Shown here: positions 9,654 through 64,000 of the stretch, in pieces | Layout of the letters: each line of letters begins with the position of its first letter | How positions within the stretch are numbered: position 1 is the first letter of the stretch | Assembly: GCF_036059255.1 (NCBI RefSeq) | Contig: NZ_CP107947.1 | Coordinates: 4,712,001 to 4,776,000, forward strand | From: Micromonospora sp. NBC_00389 | GTDB taxonomy: Bacteria > Actinomycetota > Actinomycetes > Mycobacteriales > Micromonosporaceae | Length of the DNA stretch: 64,000 bases | Reading direction: 5' to 3' | Made by a program: the position numbers and the translations under genes | Notes under the pieces: generated by a model | The model's database searches: none | The model's input: only the letters and a program-made list of their open reading frames with translations | What the model was told of the DNA's origin: nothing

Positions 9654-10950
9654 TCAGCGCTTTCCGCTGATCTCCTTCTCCTTCGGAGGGGCCGAGACCG
9701 GCGGGTGGCCGGGGGAGACCGGCGCCTCGGCCAGCTTCTCGATCGGCACGAAGAAGCCCTTGATGGCCGGGCCGAGCGCGCCGAGCCGGTTCATCTTCTT
9801 CGGTACGACCCAACCGGCGTACTCCAACTCGCCGTGGCCGTGCTCGTCGGTCGCGCCGAGGGGCTGGTGCACCTCGATGAACCGACCGTCCGGCAGCCGC
9901 CGGATGATGCCGGTCTCCACGCCGTGGGCCAGCACCTCCCGGTCGTGCTGCTGCAGGCCGTGGCAGATCCGGTAGGTGACGTAGTAGGCCAGCGGCGGGA
10001 GCAGGATCAGCCCGATCCGGCCCGCCCAGGTCATCGCGTTCAGGCTGATGTGGAAATTGTCGGCGATCACGTCGTTACCGCCGGACAGGGTCAGCACCAC
10101 GTAGAACGAGATGGCCATCGCGCCCAGGGCGGTGCGGTTCGGGACGTCGCGCGGCCGCTGGAGCAGGTTGTGCAGCTCGTTGTCCTTGTTGCGCCGCGCC
10201 TCGATGAACGGATAGAAGATCGGCAACATCGTCAGGACGCCGGGTAGCGCCACCGTGGGCCAGAACAACGGCGGGATGACGTACCCGTTGCCGATCGGGA
10301 TGGTGATCTCCCACGCTGGCATGAGGCGGGTCGAGCCGTCGAGGAACATGACGTACCAGTCGGGCTGGCTGGCGGCCGAGACCACCCACGCCTCGTACGG
10401 GCCGAACAGCCAGATCGGGTTGATCTGGAACAGGCCGCCCATCAGCGCGATGACGCCGAAGACGACCATGAAGAAGCCGCCCTGCTTGATCGCGTACCGG
10501 GGGAACATCCGTTCGCCGACCACGTTGCTGTTGGTCCGGCCGGGCCCGGGCCACTGGGTGTGCTTCTGCTTGAAGACCAGGCCCAGGTGGGCGGCTGATC
10601 AGCGCGAGCAGGAGACCGGGGATGAGCAGCACGTGGGCGATGAAGAAGCGGCCCATGATGACCTCACCCGGGAACTCCCCGCCGAAGATCGACGAGGTGA
10701 CCCACGAGCCGATCACCGGGATCGACAGCATGATGGCGGAGGCGATCCGCAGACCGGTGCCGGACAGACCGTCGTCGGGCAGCGAGTAGCCGGTGAAGCC
10801 GGCCAGGAAGCCGACCCAGAACAGCAGGCTGCCGATGATCCAGTTGAGCTCACGCGGCTTGCGGAACGCGCCGCTGAAGAACACCCGCATCATGTGCACC
10901 ACGATCGCGGCCATGAACAGCAGCGCTGCCCAGTGGTGCATCTGCCGTGC
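9654..10950 (-). pseudogene. qcrB: truncated, frameshifted cytochrome bc1 cytochrome b subunit (qcrB remnant)
   Basis: The translated pieces are clearly actinobacterial Qcr[35 protein letters not shown] and [17 protein letters not shown], down to a normal Lys-rich C-terminus. Two lesions are visible. The homology begins abruptly at the RQ-MHHWA segment, so roughly the first 120-130 residues (first transmembrane helices) are missing. A 1-nt insertion at about 10593-10594 also shifts the frame inside [15 protein letters not shown], where a heme-ligand helix lies. QcrA, normally encoded just upstream, is absent. Since QcrB is usually needed for respiration, a complete copy presumably exists elsewhere and this is a relic duplicate. 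The 5' break coincides with a sequence resembling the boundary repeat described below. Confidence 0.88.
10938..10947 (+). repeat. boundary-repeat-like sequence at the qcrB break point
   Basis: GCATCTGCCG, followed by a GCGACGCG-containing stretch, resembles the second half of the boundary repeat. It sits exactly where QcrB homology stops. Native qcrB likely reads GCATCTGGCG here (inferred from the conserved RQ-x-HH residues), so similarity alone could have guided recombination. Confidence 0.35.
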
Positions 10951-12245: not shown

Positions 12246-12401
12246 CGAGTACGAATGCGCCTGCCCCAGCCAGCCGGCATCAACGACCCCGTCGCGCCGC
12301 ATTCGCCGCCCCCGGCCAGTCCTGACTCGCGACGCACGCATCCTGGCCGACCGTACGTCGAGCGTCGGCAAGGTCTGTCACTGAACGTAACGCGCGGATC
12401 G

Positions 12402-12417
12402 CGGCATGTCCGGATGT
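12402..12417 (-). repeat. boundary repeat copy a
   Basis: The minus strand reads ACATCCGGACATGCCG, followed by CGATCCGCGCGTTACG. It lies between the 11763 gene and the DinB gene. Inverted relative to copies d-j. Confidence 0.6.
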
Positions 12418-12503
12418 CAACGGGACGGCGTAGAGAGTGAAACTCGTCTGGGCCGCGCTCGCGACGACGGCGGCCTGTCGCAGGGCGCGGCTAAAGTCCG
12501 GCC

Positions 12504-13292
12504 ATGGCTGACTTCACGGGGGACAACCTGAGCGGCTCGCGTTTCGCGCGTGTCGACCTGGCCGATGCCGAGTTCCGTGCCGTCGACCTCTCCCGCGCCC
12601 GGTTCCGCGGCGTCGACTTGAGCGGGGTGGTGATGCGCGGCGTCGAGCTGGTCGACGTCCGGATCGACGGTGAGATCCAGAACCTTGTGGTCAACGGGGT
12701 CGACGTCGCGACTCTGGTCAATGCGGAGCTCGACCGGCGCGACCCCGTCCGAGCCAGGATGCGCCCCACCGACCCCGGCGGCTTCCGGGAAGCGTGGGGC
12801 ATCGTCGAGCGGCTCTGGGACGGCACCGTCGAGCGGGCTCGCGGCCTGGACCCCGGGCTACTGCACGACTCGGTGGACGGCGAGTGGTCGTTCATCGAGA
12901 CCCTGCGCCACCTGGTGTTCGCCACCGACGCGTGGGTGCGGCGGGCCATCCTCGGCGACCCCTCGCCGTGGGACCCGCTCGACCTGCCGTGGGACGAGAT
13001 GCCGGACACCCCGGGGATCCCGCGGGACCGCGAGGCCCGCCCCTCGCTCGAGGAGGTCCTGGCGCTGCGCCGCGACCGGATGGCGACCGTGCGCACGGTG
13101 GTCGACGGCCTGACCGACGAGTCCCTGGCCAGCCGCACCGAGCCCATCGAGGGGACCGGCTGGCCGCCGCCAGAAAGCTTCCCGGTACGCGAGTGCCTGC
13201 TGATCGTCCTGAACGAGGAGTGGCACCACCGGCAGTTCGCCGAACGGGACCTCGACGCCCTGCAGACAGGCGCGGCACGGAAGGCGACCTGA
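12504..13292 (+). CDS. pentapeptide-repeat / DinB-family protein
   Basis: 262 aa. Residues 1-50 form pentapeptide-like repeats (NLSGSRFARVDLADAEF and so on), a right-handed beta helix. Residues ~90-250 form a DinB_2 four-helix bundle with candidate metal-binding histidines (TLRHLVFATDAW, EEWHHRQFAERD). DinB-fold proteins include metal-dependent thiol transferases and damage-inducible proteins; the substrate is unknown. The ATG at 12504 fits the start of the repeat domain. It is a single-gene unit bounded by repeat copies a and b. Confidence 0.88.
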   Translation: MADFTGDNLSGSRFARVDLADAEFRAVDLSRARFRGVDLSGVVMRGVELVDVRIDGEIQNLVVNGVDVATLVNAELDRRDPVRARMRPTDPGGFREAWGIVERLWDGTVERARGLDPGLLHDSVDGEWSFIETLRHLVFATDAWVRRAILGDPSPWDPLDLPWDEMPDTPGIPRDREARPSLEEVLALRRDRMATVRTVVDGLTDESLASRTEPIEGTGWPPPESFPVRECLLIVLNEEWHHRQFAERDLDALQTGAARKAT

Positions 13293-13344
13293 TCGACGTC
13301 GGACCGACTGCCCGGTCCTCGGCATGTTGGCCGCGCACCATCAG

Positions 13345-13360
13345 CGGCAGATCAGTGCAA
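13345..13360 (-). repeat. boundary repeat copy b (degenerate)
   Basis: The minus strand has ATCTGCCGCTGATGGTGCGC, the second half of the repeat; the GCATCC half is replaced. It lies between the DinB and DUF2750 genes. Confidence 0.45.
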
Positions 13361-13438
13361 GTGCGTGTAGATCCGACGCGTAGGCAGGATGAGGATCAGG
13401 TCATCCCAGTCGATCTCGGTGCTGCTAGCGTCCCGCGC

Positions 13439-13822
13439 ATGAGTCAAAGTGCAAGCCAGGCGGCGGCGTTCTTCCGGGAGGTAGCACGTCACCGGATTGT
13501 CTGGTATGTGCGGGACGATGACGGAAGCCCCGCGCCGAAAACTTCCAGCGGAGAGCGAGCCTTCCCGTATTGGTCCTCGCAGGCTCGAGCTGAGCGAGCG
13601 GCTGAAATCTGGGGCGGCGGCCTGCGCGCCGCCTCCCTCCCCTTCGAGGCTTGGAGAAGCGGAGAGCTGCCCGAACTCAGCGATGAGGGCTATCGGATTG
13701 GGATCAACTGGACCGGACCGCGACTGGTTGGCTGGGATTTCACCGTCCCCGAGGTTCTCAATCGCCTTGCCCATGCCCTGCGTGAAGGCCCGTATTCCGA
13801 TGAGAGCGCTCCTGGCAGCTAG
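13439..13822 (+). CDS. DUF2750 family protein
   Basis: 127 aa. The signature of DUF2750 is visible: VWYVRDDDGSPAP, the ERAFPYWSSQARAERAAEIW block, LPFEAWRSGELPEL and a C-terminal GYRIGINWTG-VGWDFTVPEVL. Members are small stand-alone proteins, often near toxin-immunity loci, of unknown function. The ATG at 13439 is the only start consistent with family length. It is a single-gene unit between repeat copies b and c. Confidence 0.85.
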   Translation: MSQSASQAAAFFREVARHRIVWYVRDDDGSPAPKTSSGERAFPYWSSQARAERAAEIWGGGLRAASLPFEAWRSGELPELSDEGYRIGINWTGPRLVGWDFTVPEVLNRLAHALREGPYSDESAPGS

Positions 13823-13927
13823 GTCGGCGGTCTGGGCGTTCGAGCCGGCGGAGTTGGCACGCTGTTCTCGGCAAGACCGAGCGCCGTCTTGGTCGTCCAA
13901 CGGTAACGCTGCGTGACGCGCGGTCAG

Positions 13928-13943
13928 CGGCAAATGAGGATGC
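13928..13943 (-). repeat. boundary repeat copy c
   Basis: The minus strand reads GCATCCTCATTTGCCG, then CTGACCGCGCGTCACG. It lies between the DUF2750 gene and the RecD remnant. Confidence 0.6.
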
Positions 13944-13970
13944 CGCTAACCCGCCTGTCATCTGACGAGG

Positions 13971-14278
13971 CAGACCCTGACCGTGCGTACCGACGAGGAC
14001 GAGAGCATCGACTACGACTTCGACGAACTCGACGAACTCACCCACGCCTACGCCATGACCATCACCGCTCCCAGGGCTCCGAATACCCGGCAGTGGTCAT
14101 CCCGCTGACCACCAGTGCGTGGATGATGCTGCAACGCAGCCTGCTCTACACCGCCGTCACCGGCGCCAAGAAACTCGTCGTCCTCGTCGGCTCCCACCGG
14201 GCCCTCGCCGCCGCCATCCGCACCGTCAGTGCCGGCCGCCGCCACACCGCCCTCGACCACCGACTCACCCGCATGTGA
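13971..14278 (+). pseudogene. C-terminal fragment of a RecD-like (RecD2-type) DNA helicase
   Basis: Codons from 13971 read QTLTVRTDEDES, then YDFDELDELTHAYAMTI, and after a frameshift SQGSEYPAVVIPLTTSAWMM, LLYTAVTGAKKLVVLVGS and so on. This is the UvrD_C_2 end of a RecD2-type helicase, with the conserved SQGSEYP and TAVT-AKK motifs. One base is missing near 14061 (ATCACCGCTCCCAG instead of ATCCACCGCTCCCAG), and the Arg of the TR-AKK motif is Gly. At least 600 upstream residues are absent. It is a dead fragment within the cassette-like array. Confidence 0.8.
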
Positions 14279-14372
14279 CACGGCCGTTGACATCGGTGCC
14301 GATGGGGTACCGCTTGGGTCGGAGACTCGTACGCCACGTCCCGGCGCTGATGGGTTGCGTACGGTCGAGGAC

Positions 14373-14570
14373 GTGGACGTGCTGCTACGCGGCGGACCGG
14401 GGGACGGCCAGGTCGTGTCCGGCGGCGGGGAGACCGTCGTCTGGCAGGCCTGCCTTTACGAGATCACGCCCGAGTACGGCCGCCGGCACGGACGCGACCT
14501 GCGCGTGTACCGGCACCGCCCCGACTGCTGCGAGCCGTACGGCCGAGGCGCCGAGGACCGCTGCGAGTGA
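14373..14570 (+). CDS. small conserved protein, 65 aa (copy 1)
   Basis: GTG start at 14373. Sequence features: VLLRGGPGDGQVV, WQACLYEITPEYG, then DLRVYRHRPDCCEPYGRG with a CC pair and a final CE. A clear paralogue of the same length is encoded at 57161-57358 on the other strand, and the conservation of both copies supports a real gene. Function unknown; the adjacent Cys residues could bind metal. The following 380 nt (14571-14951) carry no gene but include repeat copy d. Confidence 0.75.
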   Translation: MDVLLRGGPGDGQVVSGGGETVVWQACLYEITPEYGRRHGRDLRVYRHRPDCCEPYGRGAEDRCE

Positions 14571-14844
14571 CCTGCCGGTCCGGATGCGCGCAGCAGCGCG
14601 TCCACCCACCCCGGGCCTATAGAACATGCGTACGATCGCCTCGTAGAGGAGGTGGCCCGGCGGTGGTGGATCGGGTGCGACTGGGCACGTTGATAGCCGT
14701 TGGGCAGCGCAGTTGGCCGCATGATCATTTGTGGTGGCTCCGTCCGACTGGCAGGCGCCGTTGATCCAGTAGTCGGAATTCCCCTCATCAACGCCGTCAG
14801 GACGACGCTCTGTCACGGGCGGAGACCTGTGCCGCCCGCGCCGA

Positions 14845-14860
14845 GCATCCGCATCTGCCG
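14845..14860 (+). repeat. boundary repeat copy d
   Basis: GCATCCGCATCTGCCG, followed by ATGACCGGATGTGCCG, which partly mirrors the core. It lies about 90 nt before the DUF1349 gene. Confidence 0.65.
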
Positions 14861-14951
14861 ATGACCGGATGTGCCGTGCTGAGCGTCCTTCGAGATTGGA
14901 CGGCGTCGTAAGGGTCTGCGCGGGGGCCGCCTGGCGATTACGCTCTCCGCC

Positions 14952-15521
14952 GTGCTGAAGAACATGTCGTGGTTGAACGAGCCGCGTGACTGGTCACTGG
15001 AGGACGGCGTCCTCCGCGCAGTCACGGAACTGAGGACCGATTTCTGGCGCGAGACGTTCTACGGCTGGACCACCGACAACGGGCACTTCTTCTACCAGCC
15101 GACGACTGGTGACTTCACTGCCGAGGTCATCGTGTCTGCCACGCATACGACACGGTTCGACCAGGCCGGCATGATGATCCGAGCCGACGAGCGCAACTGG
15201 CTGAAGGCCGGCTTGGAGGTCACGTCGGACGCTGTGCAGATCAGCACGGTCTTCACACGTGATTTCTCAGACGTGTCGATGGCGCCGATCGCGGGGGTTC
15301 CCAGCGAGGTCTCGATGCGAGTCACCCGCTTCGGCGCCGCAGTGACCGTGCACTGCCGCAGCGGCGACGGTCCCTGGCAGTTGTTGCGCCTTGGTTATCT
15401 CGACCTTCCCGCCACTGTGGACGTCGGCATCATGTGCTGCTCGCCGGAGCGTGCCGGTCTGCGAGCTACATTCCGGGACCTTCGGATCGGGCCGCCGATC
15501 TCACGGGAAAACCTCGAGTAG
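14952..15521 (+). CDS. DUF1349 domain protein (concanavalin A-like fold)
   Basis: 189 aa from GTG 14952. The whole length matches the DUF1349 / yeast REE1-like lectin-fold family: DFWRETFYGWTTDNGHFFY, GDFTAEVIVSATHTTRFDQ, AGMMIRADERNWLKAGLE and the C-terminal VDVGIMCCSPERAG-ATFRDLRIG. Members are stand-alone cytosolic proteins, with binding to a carbohydrate or enzyme suggested but unproven. It is a single-gene unit between repeat copies d and e. Confidence 0.9.
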   Translation: MLKNMSWLNEPRDWSLEDGVLRAVTELRTDFWRETFYGWTTDNGHFFYQPTTGDFTAEVIVSATHTTRFDQAGMMIRADERNWLKAGLEVTSDAVQISTVFTRDFSDVSMAPIAGVPSEVSMRVTRFGAAVTVHCRSGDGPWQLLRLGYLDLPATVDVGIMCCSPERAGLRATFRDLRIGPPISRENLE

Positions 15522-15637
15522 TTCGGGCACGCTCGTGACGCGAGAAGCGAGATGGGCTTGTGCCCGTCGTCAACGTGGCCTCACGCCATACCCGTGAGCC
15601 AGCTTGCTACGGACGGTGGCCCTTGACCCGCAGCTGA

Positions 15638-15653
15638 GCATCCGCTCATGCCG
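15638..15653 (+). repeat. boundary repeat copy e
   Basis: GCATCCGCTCATGCCG. It lies between the 3' ends of two convergent genes, so it cannot be a promoter element for either. Confidence 0.55.
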
Positions 15654-15744
15654 CCCTGTGTGCGCGCCAGTCGTCGGTGCGTTGCCACGGTCGGTGACCC
15701 CAGATGCCGCGGCACACGCCTGGGCCGATGGCGATCGCCGACTC

Positions 15745-16029
15745 CTACTCGCCGGCCGAGTGCCAGGCACATTCGAACTCGTCTCGGCCGATCATGTGCG
15801 CGCTCCAGTCCTCCTCCGGGTCATCAAGACTGACCTGACCCAGACCTCCATACTGGTCTTCCTCACGGTCGGGCCCGTAGCGGAGTACAGCGCCAGCGTC
15901 GTAGGCCTCCACTTGGCGGACAGGCCAGCCGCCGTCGTCGACCTCGAAGTACCAGACGGAGTGTCCCCAACCGTCGAACTCGTCGCCTCGCGAGTCATCC
16001 CAACGACGGCGAAGGTAACGGCTCGGCAT
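15745..16029 (-). CDS. conserved hypothetical protein, 94 aa
   Basis: Starts MPSRYLRRRWDDSRGDEFD, continues WGHSVWYFEVDDGGWPVRQVEAYDAG and ends DPEEDWSAHMIGRDEFECAW. This layout recurs in many actinobacterial hypothetical proteins of ~95-100 aa (recollection of the family). It is rich in Trp, Tyr and Asp/Glu, typical of small immunity-like or adaptor proteins. The open frame extends to 16083, but the ATG at 16029 marks the conserved start. It is a single-gene unit between repeat copies e and f. Confidence 0.75.
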   Translation of the reverse strand: MPSRYLRRRWDDSRGDEFDGWGHSVWYFEVDDGGWPVRQVEAYDAGAVLRYGPDREEDQYGGLGQVSLDDPEEDWSAHMIGRDEFECAWHSAGE

Positions 16030-16109
16030 GACGAAAGCGTACGGCGGCTCCGGCACGCTGATCTGGCGTGAAGCGCTCGTCACGCAAGGTACTCAGCTCA
16101 CGGGTGCAT

Positions 16110-16125
16110 GCATCCGGACGTGCCG
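16110..16125 (+). repeat. boundary repeat copy f
   Basis: GCATCCGGACGTGCCG, followed by ATGTCCGCGCC. It lies between divergent genes. Confidence 0.6.
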
Positions 16126-16205
16126 ATGTCCGCGCCTCGGCGGTCTCGTCCGGTAGAACGGTGAGCGACCGCGACTGGTGTGGGCGAAGGAGCAGGTGAG
16201 TTGTT

Positions 16206-16658
16206 GTGGAGAACCCAGACGTGGGTGCGGCTGCCATATCGCGGGTTTACGTCGACATGGTTGGAGACCTGTTCCACGCGGGCCACGTGTCGCTCCTCCG
16301 GGAGGCGCGCCGCCATGGTGACTGGCTGGTCGTCGGCGTGCTGTCCGACGACACCGCAGCCTCCTACAAGCGTCGTCCCATCATGACCCTCGCCGAGCGT
16401 GTCGCCGTGATCGAGTCGTGCAGGTACGTCGACGAGGTGATTGAGGGCGCCCCGCTCCAAGTGACCGAAGAGTTTCTTGCCGAGCACGGCATCACCGCCG
16501 TGGTGCACGGCGACGACTTGTCGCCCGAGGGGGCCGAGTTCGTATACGGGCCCGCTGCAGCAGCCGGGAAACTCACTTACGTTCGGCGTACGGGAGGAAT
16601 CTCAACCACCCAGTTGATCCAGCGGGTGCTCGACGCGGCCGCCTCGCGAAATGAATGA
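16206..16658 (+). CDS. cytidylyltransferase-family nucleotidyltransferase
   Basis: 150 aa. The HxGH nucleotide-binding motif is present (DLFHAGHVSLLREARRHGDW), and so is the C-terminal GGISTTQLIQR, equivalent to the ISTT-[DE]-L-I signature of glycerol-3-phosphate and phosphoethanolamine cytidylyltransferases. Such enzymes couple CTP to a phosphorylated alcohol to give a CDP-activated headgroup. The GTG start at 16206 fits the family. As an isolated single gene its substrate is not indicated by its neighbours. Confidence 0.88.
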   Translation: MENPDVGAAAISRVYVDMVGDLFHAGHVSLLREARRHGDWLVVGVLSDDTAASYKRRPIMTLAERVAVIESCRYVDEVIEGAPLQVTEEFLAEHGITAVVHGDDLSPEGAEFVYGPAAAAGKLTYVRRTGGISTTQLIQRVLDAAASRNE

Positions 16659-16661
16659 CGG

Positions 16662-16680
16662 GATCTGCCGCACTGCGCGC
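16662..16680 (+). repeat. boundary repeat copy i (partial)
   Basis: GATCTGCCGCACTGCGCGC resembles the second half of the repeat. It starts 3 nt after the cytidylyltransferase stop. Confidence 0.4.
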
Positions 16681-16766
16681 GCTCATGCCGAGTTGCGTGC
16701 GCGGATTCCCGGTCTCCTGCGGAGGTCGGCGCGGCATCGTGAACGACCGAGAAGGAGACTTGGGCC

Positions 16767-17342
16767 ATGTATACCGCCTCGTCCACCTCAGCCAGCTCAG
16801 CGCCGCCTTCCCCCATCTGGATCGAGTCGATGGGCGGTCCTCTGATCGTGGTGCCGGTTTCGGCATTGGAAGAGTGGTGCGGCAGCACTGGGGTAGGGCT
16901 TGTCGTCGGCGCCGGGGATGTTCCGGACGACTATGACCGTGCATGCGAGGTGGACGGCCTGGCAGGGGTGATTGCCATTGGTGAGAAGGGTCGGCAAGGA
17001 CTTGTTCTGGCGGACGAACCGGCCACAACCTGCTATCTACCGGAGCACCGGGCCTTCGTCCGCTGGCTCGGAGCCGACTCCGCCGCTGCATTGATCGAGG
17101 CCGCCATGGTCGTTCTCCGCGACCCTGCTGCCGATTGGGAGGAATGCGGCTTCTGGGAGACGGACGGCCAAGCGGTACTCATGGACTCTGTCAGTGCGGG
17201 GAGCGAGTTGCACATTGCGTACCCCGACGGGGAGATGCCCGCGCACGCACCCATCCCGATACCAGCGACCCGCTGGAAGGTGCGCGCCGTCCACACCTGC
17301 GTGAACGAGACCTCGGTGGGTGTGGTGCACCTCTTGCCGTAG
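16767..17342 (+). CDS. Imm21 family immunity protein
   Basis: 191 aa. The N-terminal signature WIESMGGPLIVVP and the DDYDRACEVDGLAGVI, VLADEPATTCYLPEH and FVRWLGADS segments match immunity protein 21, which neutralises secreted polymorphic toxins of neighbouring bacteria. The ATG at 16767 has GAAGGAGA about 10 nt upstream. No cognate toxin is next to it, so it is an orphan immunity gene, consistent with an array protecting against foreign toxins. It is bounded by repeat copies i and j. Confidence 0.87.
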   Translation: MYTASSTSASSAPPSPIWIESMGGPLIVVPVSALEEWCGSTGVGLVVGAGDVPDDYDRACEVDGLAGVIAIGEKGRQGLVLADEPATTCYLPEHRAFVRWLGADSAAALIEAAMVVLRDPAADWEECGFWETDGQAVLMDSVSAGSELHIAYPDGEMPAHAPIPIPATRWKVRAVHTCVNETSVGVVHLLP

Positions 17343-17396
17343 CCACAGACCTGATCAACACGCCAACTTGCCGCTGGTGGCTCACTGGTCAAAGCC

Positions 17397-17414
17397 GGAT
17401 GCACGCTTCTGCCG
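17397..17414 (+). repeat. boundary repeat copy j
   Basis: GGATGCACGCTTCTGCCG, followed by CTGACAGCGCGGG. The second half matches the extended consensus well. It lies between the Imm21 gene and the next gene. Confidence 0.45.
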
Positions 17415-17478
17415 CTGACAGCGCGGGTGGCCGCCTGGCTCGCCATCTGTGTTCCGTGCCGCATGTGATGATCGGTTC

Positions 17479-17880
17479 GTGAGCCTTCGTGAGTGGCAGC
17501 GCCTGACGCATATCGAGCGGGCTTTCTTCATCAACTCGTTCGAGATGGACCTCCTGCCCGGCGTGTTCGGTGACCTGGACCCCGCCCAGCCGGAGCCGTC
17601 GTTGTCCGAGCTGGCCTCCGTCCTGCTGAACTTGGTGGACCGCGGCTGGATGGAAATGCGCCGCTACGTGCGGCGGGTTGCCAATGACGGCCGGGAGGGC
17701 TTGGCGCACGGCGATCCTGTGCCGAGGGACCAGCTGCCGGTGCTGCTGGCAGACCCCGCCAGTTGGGAGTACCCGGATGATCCGAGTTGGATTGGTGCGC
17801 TGACGCTGGTGGAGACCGAAGCCGGCAGGACGATCAGCCGGATGTCCGCCGACGAGATTGCCACACGCGACAACGTATAG
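17479..17880 (+). CDS. hypothetical protein, 133 aa (immunity-like)
   Basis: GTG start at 17479 (VSLREWQRLTHIERAFFINS). The protein is acidic, with LSELASVLLNLVDRGWMEMRRYV followed by PRDQLPVLLADPASWEYPDDPSWIGALTLVETEAG. This helix-rich, WxY/acidic composition is typical of small cytosolic immunity proteins, but I do not recognise a named family. It is a single-gene unit between repeat copies j and g. Confidence 0.65.
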   Translation: MSLREWQRLTHIERAFFINSFEMDLLPGVFGDLDPAQPEPSLSELASVLLNLVDRGWMEMRRYVRRVANDGREGLAHGDPVPRDQLPVLLADPASWEYPDDPSWIGALTLVETEAGRTISRMSADEIATRDNV

Positions 17881-17905
17881 GCGAGCGGCTCGAAGTCCTG
17901 TAACC

Positions 17906-17921
17906 GCATCCGCATCTGCCG
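17906..17921 (+). repeat. boundary repeat copy g
   Basis: GCATCCGCATCTGCCG, identical in core to copy d and followed by CCGAGCGTGCGTCACG. It lies between convergent gene ends. Confidence 0.65.
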
Positions 17922-17984
17922 CCGAGCGTGCGTCACGTTCCGTACGGATGTCGGTGCTGAAGAACCTCGGCGGGCCGTCCTTCC

Positions 17985-18218
17985 TCAGAAACCTTTCCCT
18001 TGCCGGATGACCGCGACGCCGCTTACCTCCGCGCACTGCCACAGATCGAGTTGATACCGGAAGTGCGGACCCTCCTCCAACGCCTTCACCGGCACTGGTG
18101 GCGGGCCGCACGGCACGTGCGAGACCCGGATCCGGTACTGCCCGGCAGGGATCTCAACTCGGTGCTCAGGCCCGGGAAGTTCCATGCAGCCGAAGACGTG
18201 GACCACGCCACTCGGCAC
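17985..18218 (-). CDS. hypothetical protein, 77 aa, possibly 5'-truncated
   Basis: Reads VHVFGCMELPGPEHRVEIPAG, then YRIRVSHVPCGPPPVPV and HFRYQLDLWQCAEVSGVAVIRQG. The end resembles the C-terminal part of longer actinobacterial proteins with a Y-x-x-R-V-S-x-x-P motif and a final D-L-W...V-x-R-Q-G (recollection). No good ribosome-binding site precedes 18218, so the gene may have lost its start. The 340 nt to its right hold no gene until the tRNA fragment. Confidence 0.4.
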   Translation of the reverse strand: MPSGVVHVFGCMELPGPEHRVEIPAGQYRIRVSHVPCGPPPVPVKALEEGPHFRYQLDLWQCAEVSGVAVIRQGKGF

Positions 18219-18429: not shown

Positions 18430-18599
18430 CCCGGGCGGTCGACGATCGCATGCTCCATGTGTGCTCCGCCGGTCGGCAAAACGGCAGCCCACACCGGTGG
18501 GCACGGGAGCGCACTCCTGGATACTCGTAGGTATCTGCTGGCAGGTAAGCTATCCCCTCGCGCCCTCGTAGCTCAGGGGATAGAGCATCGGTTTCCTAA
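18430..18599 (+). repeat. direct repeat, tRNA-Arg 5'-half locus, copy 1
   Basis: About 170 nt related to 36366-36535. The last 44 nt are identical and the upstream ~125 nt are similar with scattered differences. See the tRNA fragments. Confidence 0.7.
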
Positions 18600-18605
18600 A
18601 CTGAT
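18562..18605 (+). tRNA. tRNA-Arg(CCU) 5' half, incomplete
   Basis: Acceptor 5' strand GCCCTCG, D arm GCTC...GAGC, anticodon stem TCGGT/ACTGA and loop TTCCTAA (anticodon CCT) are all present. The T arm and 3' acceptor strand do not follow, so this is not a functional tRNA. tRNA-Arg genes are frequent attachment sites for actinobacterial integrative elements, and breakage near the anticodon loop fits that. The ~380 nt to 18987 contain no supported gene. Confidence 0.7.
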
Positions 18606-18987
18606 GCTGGTCGATCGAATTAAGCCGCGTGACCTGCTGATCCGTCTTCTTCCGTGCCACTTGACGGGTCGCATCCGCGATGACTCTGCTCGGTCGGTCG
18701 GTTTGCGGTCTGAGGACCGCCGAGAGTGCTGCCGTTGGATCGACCGGGTTTTAGGTGCGGGCGCAGCGGGTCCGCACACGGCGGAATCAGCGGACCGGTT
18801 GACGTCAGCGGCTGCCACGTCGCGTGACGGACAACCGGGAGCGCTTCCGGTAGCAGTTCCGTTACGTCGACACGCCGCTCCGTTGCATTGATGTTCATCA
18901 CCCTTGTTCGCCGTCGAGATGTCTTGTTGTGTCGTGAAGGGCCCGTTTAGCCTGGGCGCGCGCTCGAAGGTCAACGGGGGGCGGCAT

Positions 18988-49805: not shown

Positions 49806-50312
49806 GCCGGGCTTCCTTGGCGTTGTACGGCCACGGTGGCCGCATCCACTTTTGAGACGGAGCCGCCAAGCCATTCTCGGCATCCTTGCAACATTTTCTT
49901 CGGGAACCTCTTGACGCGGCAGCGCCCGTCACACGCCGGTCGTACCACTTCGGACGAAACACCGCAGGTCAGAGAGCCTTTCGCTACTTTGCGGAGCCAA
50001 CACTGACGCTCAGCCGGGCCTTGAAGCCCATAAGTAGCAAACCTCGTCGGATCGTCGGTGTGTACTCATTTGCCGCGAGCCGCGCAACGAGTGGCCCTTA
50101 CCGATCGACCTGCCACCCAACTCCGGTAGGCGGACGACCGTGATCGACAAGGTGTTTGACGATCATGAGGGCCTGTCCCAGCGGGACTGTATCCCGGTCG
50201 TCGTAGGTATCGTGCTGGTCCGTTGCTCAGCACGTACCCGCCCTGCTGGCCACTTGCCGTTGGGTCGGTCGCGTGCTCGCCAGCGTCGCCGGGCTCATTG
50301 AGGATCATGACT

Positions 50313-56732: not shown

Positions 56733-56836
56733 CGACGTCAAGTAACGACGGATGATTCAGGCGGCATTCGGATTTGCCGACCACAGTGCACTGAGCGTCC
56801 CGCCGGGACCGTCGCTAGCTCTGATAGAACGGCTGC

Positions 56837-63847: not shown

Positions 63848-63863
63848 GCATCCGGACATGCCG
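63848..63863 (+). repeat. boundary repeat copy h
   Basis: GCATCCGGACATGCCG, followed by CTGACATGGCGCACC. It lies upstream of the immunity-like gene at 63124-63765, 46 kb from the main array. Beyond it, 63871-64000 holds no gene I can support. Confidence 0.6.
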
Positions 63864-64000
63864 CTGACATGGCGCACCGACAGCTCAGTTGCCATCACCG
63901 TTGATGTCGCCCTCGCCGTTACCCGCCCGGCCGGGCCATCCTCGTGGCCGCAGATCAGCGCCAGCATCATGGAGTTGGCGTCACTCAACGTGACTGCCGG

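Follow-up and report, generated by a model that had tools for sequence, protein, structure and literature searches.

A window of 64,000 nucleotides from Micromonospora sp. NBC_00389 (positions 4,712,001-4,776,000 of the 7.87-Mb chromosome) contains, between 12.3 and 18.3 kb, a row of small genes separated by copies of a 28-bp site. Judged from sequence, these genes very probably belong to a mobile gene-cassette system of Actinobacteria in which a dedicated tyrosine recombinase of the simple kind acts on dif-like sites. The sites, their clustering and polarity, their linkage to the recombinase gene, the duplication and exchange of units within and between species, and breakpoints in the centre of the site were all observed. 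The original prediction, made from the window's letters, had called the stretch a cassette-like array, and the units between its sites do recur elsewhere in this genome and in other species.

Alignment and a weight matrix confirmed the repeat at all nine places where it had been reported, and the copies designated a-c are indeed inverted relative to d-j. The core had been given as GCATCC followed by TGCCG; both parts are present, but the most conserved part, shared by all nine places, is the centre TGCCG, and GCATCC is just one form of the left side. The list itself also needed revision, as the copy placed at 16662 comprises two sites 20 bp apart (16655 and 16675), and partners at 13869 and 16053 had been missed. 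According to the matrix, built on 456 kb of chromosome (the window plus 392 kb upstream), the site consists of an 11-bp arm, a 6-bp centre, TGCCG[C/A], and an 11-bp inverted arm, so that its outer parts are rough inverted versions of each other; some sites contain short palindromes. The conserved positions can be written as the degenerate pattern RYRYNCKSWYN TGYCGM NRWSMGNGC (11 + 6 + 11 bases). An 11-6-11 layout is that of simple tyrosine-recombinase sites such as dif, the centre of which is likewise 6 bp long. In this respect the site resembles those of Xer/dif modules, with a homologous 6-bp centre and the crossover inside positions 11-16.

The distribution of the site was compared with that in reversed sequence. 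A fixed motif (GCATCC, 3-6 bases, TGCCG) yielded 21 matches in the 456 kb, 18 of them on the + strand, and 4 in the reversed sequence. The weight matrix, refined from these matches and hence trained partly on the window's own copies, yielded 116 matches above 12 bits versus 2 in the reversed 456 kb: 99 at 4.334-4.503 Mb, 1 at 4,598,862, 13 at 12.3-18.3 kb of the window, and 3 elsewhere in the window. By comparison, the pattern GCATCCGNANNTGCCG with two mismatches was swamped by chance (742 matches versus 976 in the reversed control), its best matches being clustered nonetheless. Across 61 genomes of the genus, this one included, the degenerate pattern with at most one mismatch was found 995 times and its reversed form 74 times. 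Across the phylum, 125 of 296 genomes drawn had a match and, apart from this genome, none had more than 5, the same as controls; the motif is therefore not a common GC-rich word. Random placement, or equal density in the spacers of core genes, had been named as an outcome that would count against the array, and neither was found.

As predicted, the sites lie at the borders of gene units. Using genes called without regard to the sites, 12 of 97 site centres (>15 bits, 4.330-4.505 Mb) fell inside a called gene, versus 71 expected by shifting and never fewer than 58 in 1000 shifts. In the window, none of the 12 site centres compared falls in the 8 listed genes, provided that the in-frame ATG near 16031, and not position 16083, is taken as the start of the DUF6881 gene. 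Among 69 units of at least 250 bp, one called gene was present in 40 and two in 13; large units reach 24 kb and hold many genes. Among the window units, Pfam backed the gene names DinB_2 (with pentapeptide repeats), DUF2750, DUF1349, cytidylyltransferase-like and Imm21; DUF6881 was matched only below its cut-off. For the larger array upstream, a Pfam match was obtained for 21 of 40 proteins picked from 76 candidate genes in units below 3 kb; they include acetyltransferases (GNAT), glyoxalases, NUDIX and HAD proteins, alpha/beta hydrolases, a SUKH-3 immunity protein, PadR, a sigma factor, an inositol monophosphatase, YunG and DUF1801, among others. Genes in units of this size point in either direction, 37 with the sites and 41 against (GC-frame gene caller), as do the 21 matched by Pfam (12 along the sites, 9 opposite).

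The larger array spans ~170 kb, its 99 matches (>12 bits) all on the + strand, and its end is separated by 222 kb from the first site of the window. The genome has 28 tyrosine-recombinase matches, two of them inside this main array; one is an intact XerC/D-like gene, 282 kb ahead of that first site. A linked recombinase gene, for which the original prediction had proposed to look, is present in the main array and absent from the window. Its catalytic domain matches PF00589 with 84.5 bits, and in an alignment of 26 sequences from the 79 loci described below, K183, H247, R250, H273 and Y282 were invariant and R157 was conserved in at least 90%. We take these residues to be the catalytic set (R-K-H-R-H-Y) of tyrosine recombinases. 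By its catalytic domain and residues the protein is a simple tyrosine recombinase, and is predicted to cleave and rejoin DNA at the 28-bp sites. Profile scores were highest for a general tyrosine-recombinase model (109 bits), XerC (106) and XerD (103), with XerA also among the best, all below their cut-offs. The integron-integrase models scored 43.7 bits (TIGR02249, cut-off 265) and 33.9 bits (NF011946, cut-off 435), with a best stretch confined to residues 221-285. Among solved structures, compared by sequence, XerD and XerA were nearest and XerH also matched; IntI4 was found at E 3.3e-5 over residues 226-285. The AlphaFold2 model, based on the 26 sequences, was poor, with a mean predicted local distance difference test score (pLDDT) of 66 and values below 50 for residues 243-305.

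Several other features were seen in the main array and elsewhere on the chromosome. Between two of its sites lies a 24-kb stretch (4,362,970-4,387,319; L003, L004) with many - strand genes and an open reading frame (ORF) that by eye resembles a serine recombinase; this is perhaps another integrated element. Three near-identical 1.04-kb repeats resembling insertion sequences are present inside the array (L006:18921-19964, L008:8890-9936 and chromosome 4,496,593-4,497,629). Further small clusters of sites occur at 1.315-1.333 Mb (- strand), 1.547-1.549 Mb, 1.940-1.951 Mb (with a broken recombinase gene) and 4.160-4.173 Mb.

The association of site and recombinase extends well beyond this strain. 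A scan of one genome per species (84,980 species) identified 179 relatives, from which a set of 79 distinct loci was retained. Their titles carry 34 genus names, including Micromonospora, Actinoplanes, Dactylosporangium, Terrabacter, Nocardioides, Kribbella, Kineococcus, Tessaracoccus and Amycolatopsis; some are metagenome-assembled genomes (MAGs), one of them labelled Acidobacteria. With the matrix from this one genome, the 79 loci yielded 422 sites on the recombinase strand, 37 on the opposite strand and 12 in the reversed control; 76 loci had one or more same-strand sites, and 72 had two or more. The signal was about equally strong outside Micromonosporaceae (47 loci, grouped by name: 214 same-strand, 24 opposite, 8 control in 722 kb) and inside (32 loci: 208, 13 and 4 in 490 kb). 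Since this matrix scores loci such as those of Ornithinimicrobium lower, counts there are probably lower bounds. Sites above 10 bits were found within 250 bp upstream of the recombinase gene at 40 of 79 loci, downstream at 42, and on both sides at 21; the gene is therefore often itself a unit between two sites. The family comprises 5,390 proteins at E<=1e-60 among 7,998 candidates scored. Within the genus, a recombinase gene, whether complete or partial, was found in 14 of 61 genomes at E<=1e-50. With the present genome left out, the 13 with it had a median of 29 pattern matches (4-126), versus 6 (0-31) in the 47 without it (one-sided p 1.6e-4). Plasmid records contained no relative at E<=1e-60, and viral contigs contained one distant relative (31% identity). 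The MAG labelled Acidobacteria (L056) combines this recombinase with stretches 95% identical to Ornithinimicrobium, perhaps owing to a binning error.

Individual units have moved. The DUF1349 unit of the window (14856-15653) is present in the main array (4,485,328-4,486,125) at 797 of 798 bases, the likeness stopping abruptly on the right flank and dropping to that of the arm on the left. Within the main array, 4,349,097-4,349,920 and 4,422,869-4,423,692 differ at 6 of 824 bases, and 4,344,799-4,347,034 and 4,423,688-4,425,920 are 98% identical; in both cases both ends are at sites. The DinB unit (12391-13358) occurs alone in another species (G010) at 95%, starting at a site, and a copy of the DUF6881 unit, 90% identical and bounded by sites at both ends, is present in Micromonospora sp. 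KC606. G032 shares the stretch 17410-18218 at 99% identity; the match begins precisely in the centre of site h and ends near 18218. Content that varies while neighbours stay, which the original prediction had proposed to test, was seen in Ornithinimicrobium (L048) and L056, where the same two neighbours, in shared stretches 95% identical, enclose 1.2 and 0.7 kb that have no mutual BLAST match. The cytidylyltransferase gene was matched at 85-87% in two other species; neither shows a detectable site within the surrounding 4 kb, and the match takes in little more than the gene, which suggests that ordinary genes may become cassettes.

These comparisons were extended to the ends of all shared stretches. 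With recombinase stretches included, 194 of 1063 ends were at a site in both sequences, a result dominated by the very gene used to select the loci; the matching was therefore repeated over the main region, L021-L099 and L101-L103 at >=85% identity with the recombinase masked. The 52 stretches of >=200 bp then obtained have 101 ends away from contig ends; 21 of these coincided with a site in both sequences, where 0.04 would be expected, 8 in one and 72 in neither. The breakpoint could be placed within the site itself: pairs of sites sharing only the upstream flank (22 over all, 19 in the main region alone) are alike to position 16 and then at background, and pairs sharing only the downstream flank (25 and 14) are alike from position 11 on. 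Exchange therefore falls within TGCCG[C/A].

The sixth base of the centre, C or A, appears to define two classes of site. It was the same in 16 of 17 clusters of sites sharing their upstream flank, versus 0.52 by chance. Over all loci, 432 matches were single and there were 65 close pairs, of which 46 were C then A; a set of 32 close pairs had C in the first site in 27 and A in the second in 27. Short linkers ran from a C site to an A site in 19 of 24 cases, and gene units from A to C in 28 of 65 and from C to C in 23. Gene-less linker units (80-81 bp at chromosome 4,388,600, 4,425,895 and 4,463,635, as well as other close pairs) recur with different genes on both sides.

From these patterns we infer the role of this recombinase, a circular intermediate, double-stranded substrates and the two-class rule. 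A cassette would consist of one or a few genes, in either orientation, between direct copies of the 28-bp site. The arm-less XerC/D-like recombinase (~305 amino acids), often itself a unit, would bind the two inverted 11-bp arms and exchange strands across TGCCG[C/A]; the cassette would leave as a circle with one site and insert at a site with a matching centre. The C and A classes would be two preferred sets of partners; many genes are followed by a short linker that opens with a C site and closes with an A site. The window holds a satellite array without a recombinase, which the enzyme encoded at chromosome position 4441625 could serve in trans.

Several observations weigh against this scheme. 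The window contains no recombinase gene, and 47 of the 61 genomes of the genus have none at E<=1e-50, yet many of these hold a few matches, up to 31 in one. The site nearest before the intact gene, which starts 59 bp before it, is weak (10.7 bits), and arm symmetry is moderate, with ~5 of 11 positions pairing in single sites. The other end of the DinB unit shared with G010 lacks a site above threshold, and the DUF6881 unit as found in G044 (92%) has a detectable site at one end only. Of the 72 of 101 ends at no site in either sequence, several look like copies of insertion sequences. The exception to the class rule is the window's own site e, and the rule itself may partly reflect inherited left and right arm types.

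Other explanations account for part of these data. The modules might be dif-like elements run by the host's housekeeping XerC/XerD, as proposed for Acinetobacter plasmids, with the array recombinase a passenger. The 11-6-11 layout agrees with this, as do the best profile scores (general tyrosine recombinase, XerC, XerD and XerA, all under cut-offs). Xer proteins are expected nearly everywhere in the phylum. The phylum-wide draw was nevertheless at control level, site number tracks the dedicated recombinase, and sites accompany it at 76 of 79 loci, so that we consider this reading very unlikely. A search with an actinobacterial dif pattern, allowing 3 mismatches, gave no match in this genome. 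It is very unlikely that we are dealing with a divergent true integron, in which the paired sites (59 bp apart) would be attC sites that fold as single strands and the recombinase a distant IntI. Cassette contents are integron-like, and in part of the array each cassette end carries two simple sites (C then A, 27 of 32 each) that resemble attC halves; most sites are single, however, and the 46 C..A pairs showed no covariation of the arms expected to pair (1L-1R z 0.25, 2L-2R z 0.89; power limited). GTTRRRY was not enriched (4 found versus 5.1 expected within 60 bp of 97 site cores, one strand searched), consistent with the original view that the repeat is not a classical attC. The TIGR02249 score is far below its cut-off, and gene strands are about even. 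An attC-like hairpin had been our first guess from the pairs 59 bp apart, and was rejected after the covariation test; RNAfold of the pairs, run without shuffles, was not distinctive.

Two further explanations were weighed. If the sites were intergenic repeats, terminator-like or of the repetitive extragenic palindromic (REP) kind, that spread otherwise, units could move by homologous recombination between them. Such repeats would lie between genes, and some hold short palindromes, as found here; unlike homologous recombination, however, exchange stops in the centre even where the partners' arms differ, the sites share one strand whatever the direction of the genes, and the phylum-wide draw is at control level. 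This origin is highly improbable. Alternatively, each unit could be a decayed integrative element that once had its own integrase, the sites being left-over attachment (att) sites of unrelated insertions. Units of up to 24 kb with many genes, and four shortened or broken recombinase matches in the genome, fit this idea, which is hardly credible given that one site consensus serves all units and that most of those of at least 250 bp hold one called gene (40 of 69) or two (13).

The proposed system has much in common with integrons: small genes of mixed function in long arrays, one recombination site to each unit, a tyrosine recombinase, units shared singly between species, and recombinase-less satellite clusters like CALIN (clusters of attC sites lacking integron integrases). 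It differs in that (i) its recombinase resembles Xer proteins and scores far below the cut-offs of the IntI models, outside the IntI family; (ii) the sites are 28 bp with a TGCCG centre rather than GTTRRRY hairpins, lacking both attC boxes and hairpin covariation; (iii) genes lie in both directions rather than one; and (iv) the recombinase is often a unit inside the array. No attI platform was recognised; sites lie within 250 bp on both sides of the gene at 21 of 79 loci, and contig ends limit the view at the rest. The array is not an integron in the strict sense, though it works like one or like an Acinetobacter dif module. In the pdif modules of Acinetobacter plasmids, genes likewise lie between 28-bp sites, each built of two 11-bp arms around a 6-bp centre. 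Here, by contrast, the recombinase is coded in the array, the array is chromosomal with ~100 matches, and the sites are direct and GC-rich, whereas pdif sites alternate in orientation and have a different sequence. XerA, XerD and XerH are among the solved structures matched by sequence. XerA and XerH systems use one protein for both arms; unlike the arrays here, they act on a single dif site in each chromosome, where they resolve dimers.

The simple (arm-less, Brujita-type) tyrosine integrases of Arthrobacter and Gordonia phages are small, like the array recombinase, and are its closest annotated phage relatives, with ~38-48% identity over at least 90% of the protein among the matches listed from 50,697 phage records; an unannotated 6.7-kb record, MT837522, reached 60.5% identity over 56% of the query. 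Two phage integrase regions (L120 and L121) lacked the 28-bp site, their best score being 5.2 bits, whereas reversed sequence reached 14.1. A phage integrates whole, as a single element rather than as cassettes. The same two regions, from Arthrobacter phages Seahorse and Karkharias, each have two annotated tyrosine integrase genes face to face, one of which is the relative found.

On balance, we lean towards regarding this as a third, independently evolved cassette-capture system, an actinobacterial counterpart of the integron with double-stranded dif-like sites whose overlaps fall into two classes, a recombinase carried as a cassette, and up to ~100 sites per array, at loci from many genera. 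PMC9024848 describes Actinobacteria as lacking complete integrons. We found no description of this system in the open PubMed Central (PMC) papers searched. If this reading holds, tools built on IntI and attC would overlook such arrays. Present in loci from 34 named genera, it would give Actinobacteria a route to shuffle single adaptive genes, and could explain scattered orphan immunity and acetyltransferase genes. The 28-bp motif allows cassettes and exchange events to be catalogued in existing genomes, and the enzyme would add a new recombinase whose short sites come in two classes. The system also bears on the origin of integrons, suggesting that a plain Xer-like enzyme can sustain a cassette array with no folding of attC.

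Features of the window array and of the recombinase genes (window positions unless marked as chromosome)
Feature	Position	Strand	Remarks
Site a, C class	12390..12417	-	37.7 bits, top score in 456 kb; left end of unit 95% identical in G010
Cassette gene, pentapeptide repeats and DinB_2 (unit a-b)	12504..13292	+	Pfam
Site b, C class	13333..13360	-	Weak, 18.8 bits; right end of G010 match
Cassette gene, DUF2750	13439..13822	+	Pfam
Site c', A class	13857..13884	-	Partner of c at 59 bp; matrix
Site c, C class	13916..13943	-	Matrix
ORF between c and d	14229..14570	+	Where site direction flips; no Pfam match
Site d, A class	14845..14872	+	Overlapping second match at 14861; left breakpoint of duplicated DUF1349 unit
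Mobile unit d-e (DUF1349)	14856..15653	+	Duplicated in main array, both breakpoints in TGCCG
Cassette gene, DUF1349	14952..15521	+	Pfam
Site e, C class	15638..15665	+	A class in the unit's other copy; fixed motif and matrix
Cassette gene, DUF6881-like	15745..16083	-	Opposite to its sites; 24.4 bits versus Pfam cut-off 27; in-frame ATG at ~16031 would clear site f'
Site f', centre TGGCG	16053..16080	+	57 bp from f at 16110; end of stretches shared with L094 and L122
Site f, A class	16110..16137	+	Matrix
Cassette gene, cytidylyltransferase-like	16206..16658	+	Pfam
Site g', C class	16655..16682	+	Overlaps stop codon of preceding gene
Site g, A class	16675..16702	+	Matrix
Cassette gene, Imm21	16767..17342	+	Pfam
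Site h, C class	17399..17426	+	Left breakpoint of stretch shared with G032
Cassette gene, 143 amino acids	17449..17880	+	No Pfam match; inside stretch 99% identical in G032
Site j, C class	17906..17933	+	Matrix
Start of further unit	17934..18218	.	Common to G032 up to 18218, then broken off
Isolated site-like match	50060..50087	+	16.9 bits
Isolated site-like match	56764..56791	+	23.8 bits
Isolated site-like match	63848..63875	+	25.1 bits
Intact recombinase gene, 305 amino acids, XerC/D-like	chromosome 4,441,625-4,442,542		Inside main array
Shortened recombinase copy, 244 amino acids	chromosome 4,416,745-4,417,479		Inside main array
Broken recombinase pieces	chromosome 4,352,818-4,353,536 and 1,943,629-1,944,537		

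The flip in site direction between c and d points to either an inversion or two separate insertions in the history of the window array. Outside the array, window positions 9654-10941 hold a second copy of a cytochrome b stretch (qcrB-like, named by eye), 93% identical over ~715 bp to chromosome position 7,475,146. Shortly after the array, positions 18566-18630 resemble, by eye, the beginning of a tRNA gene, which is then broken off; ARAGORN finds no tRNA in the window.

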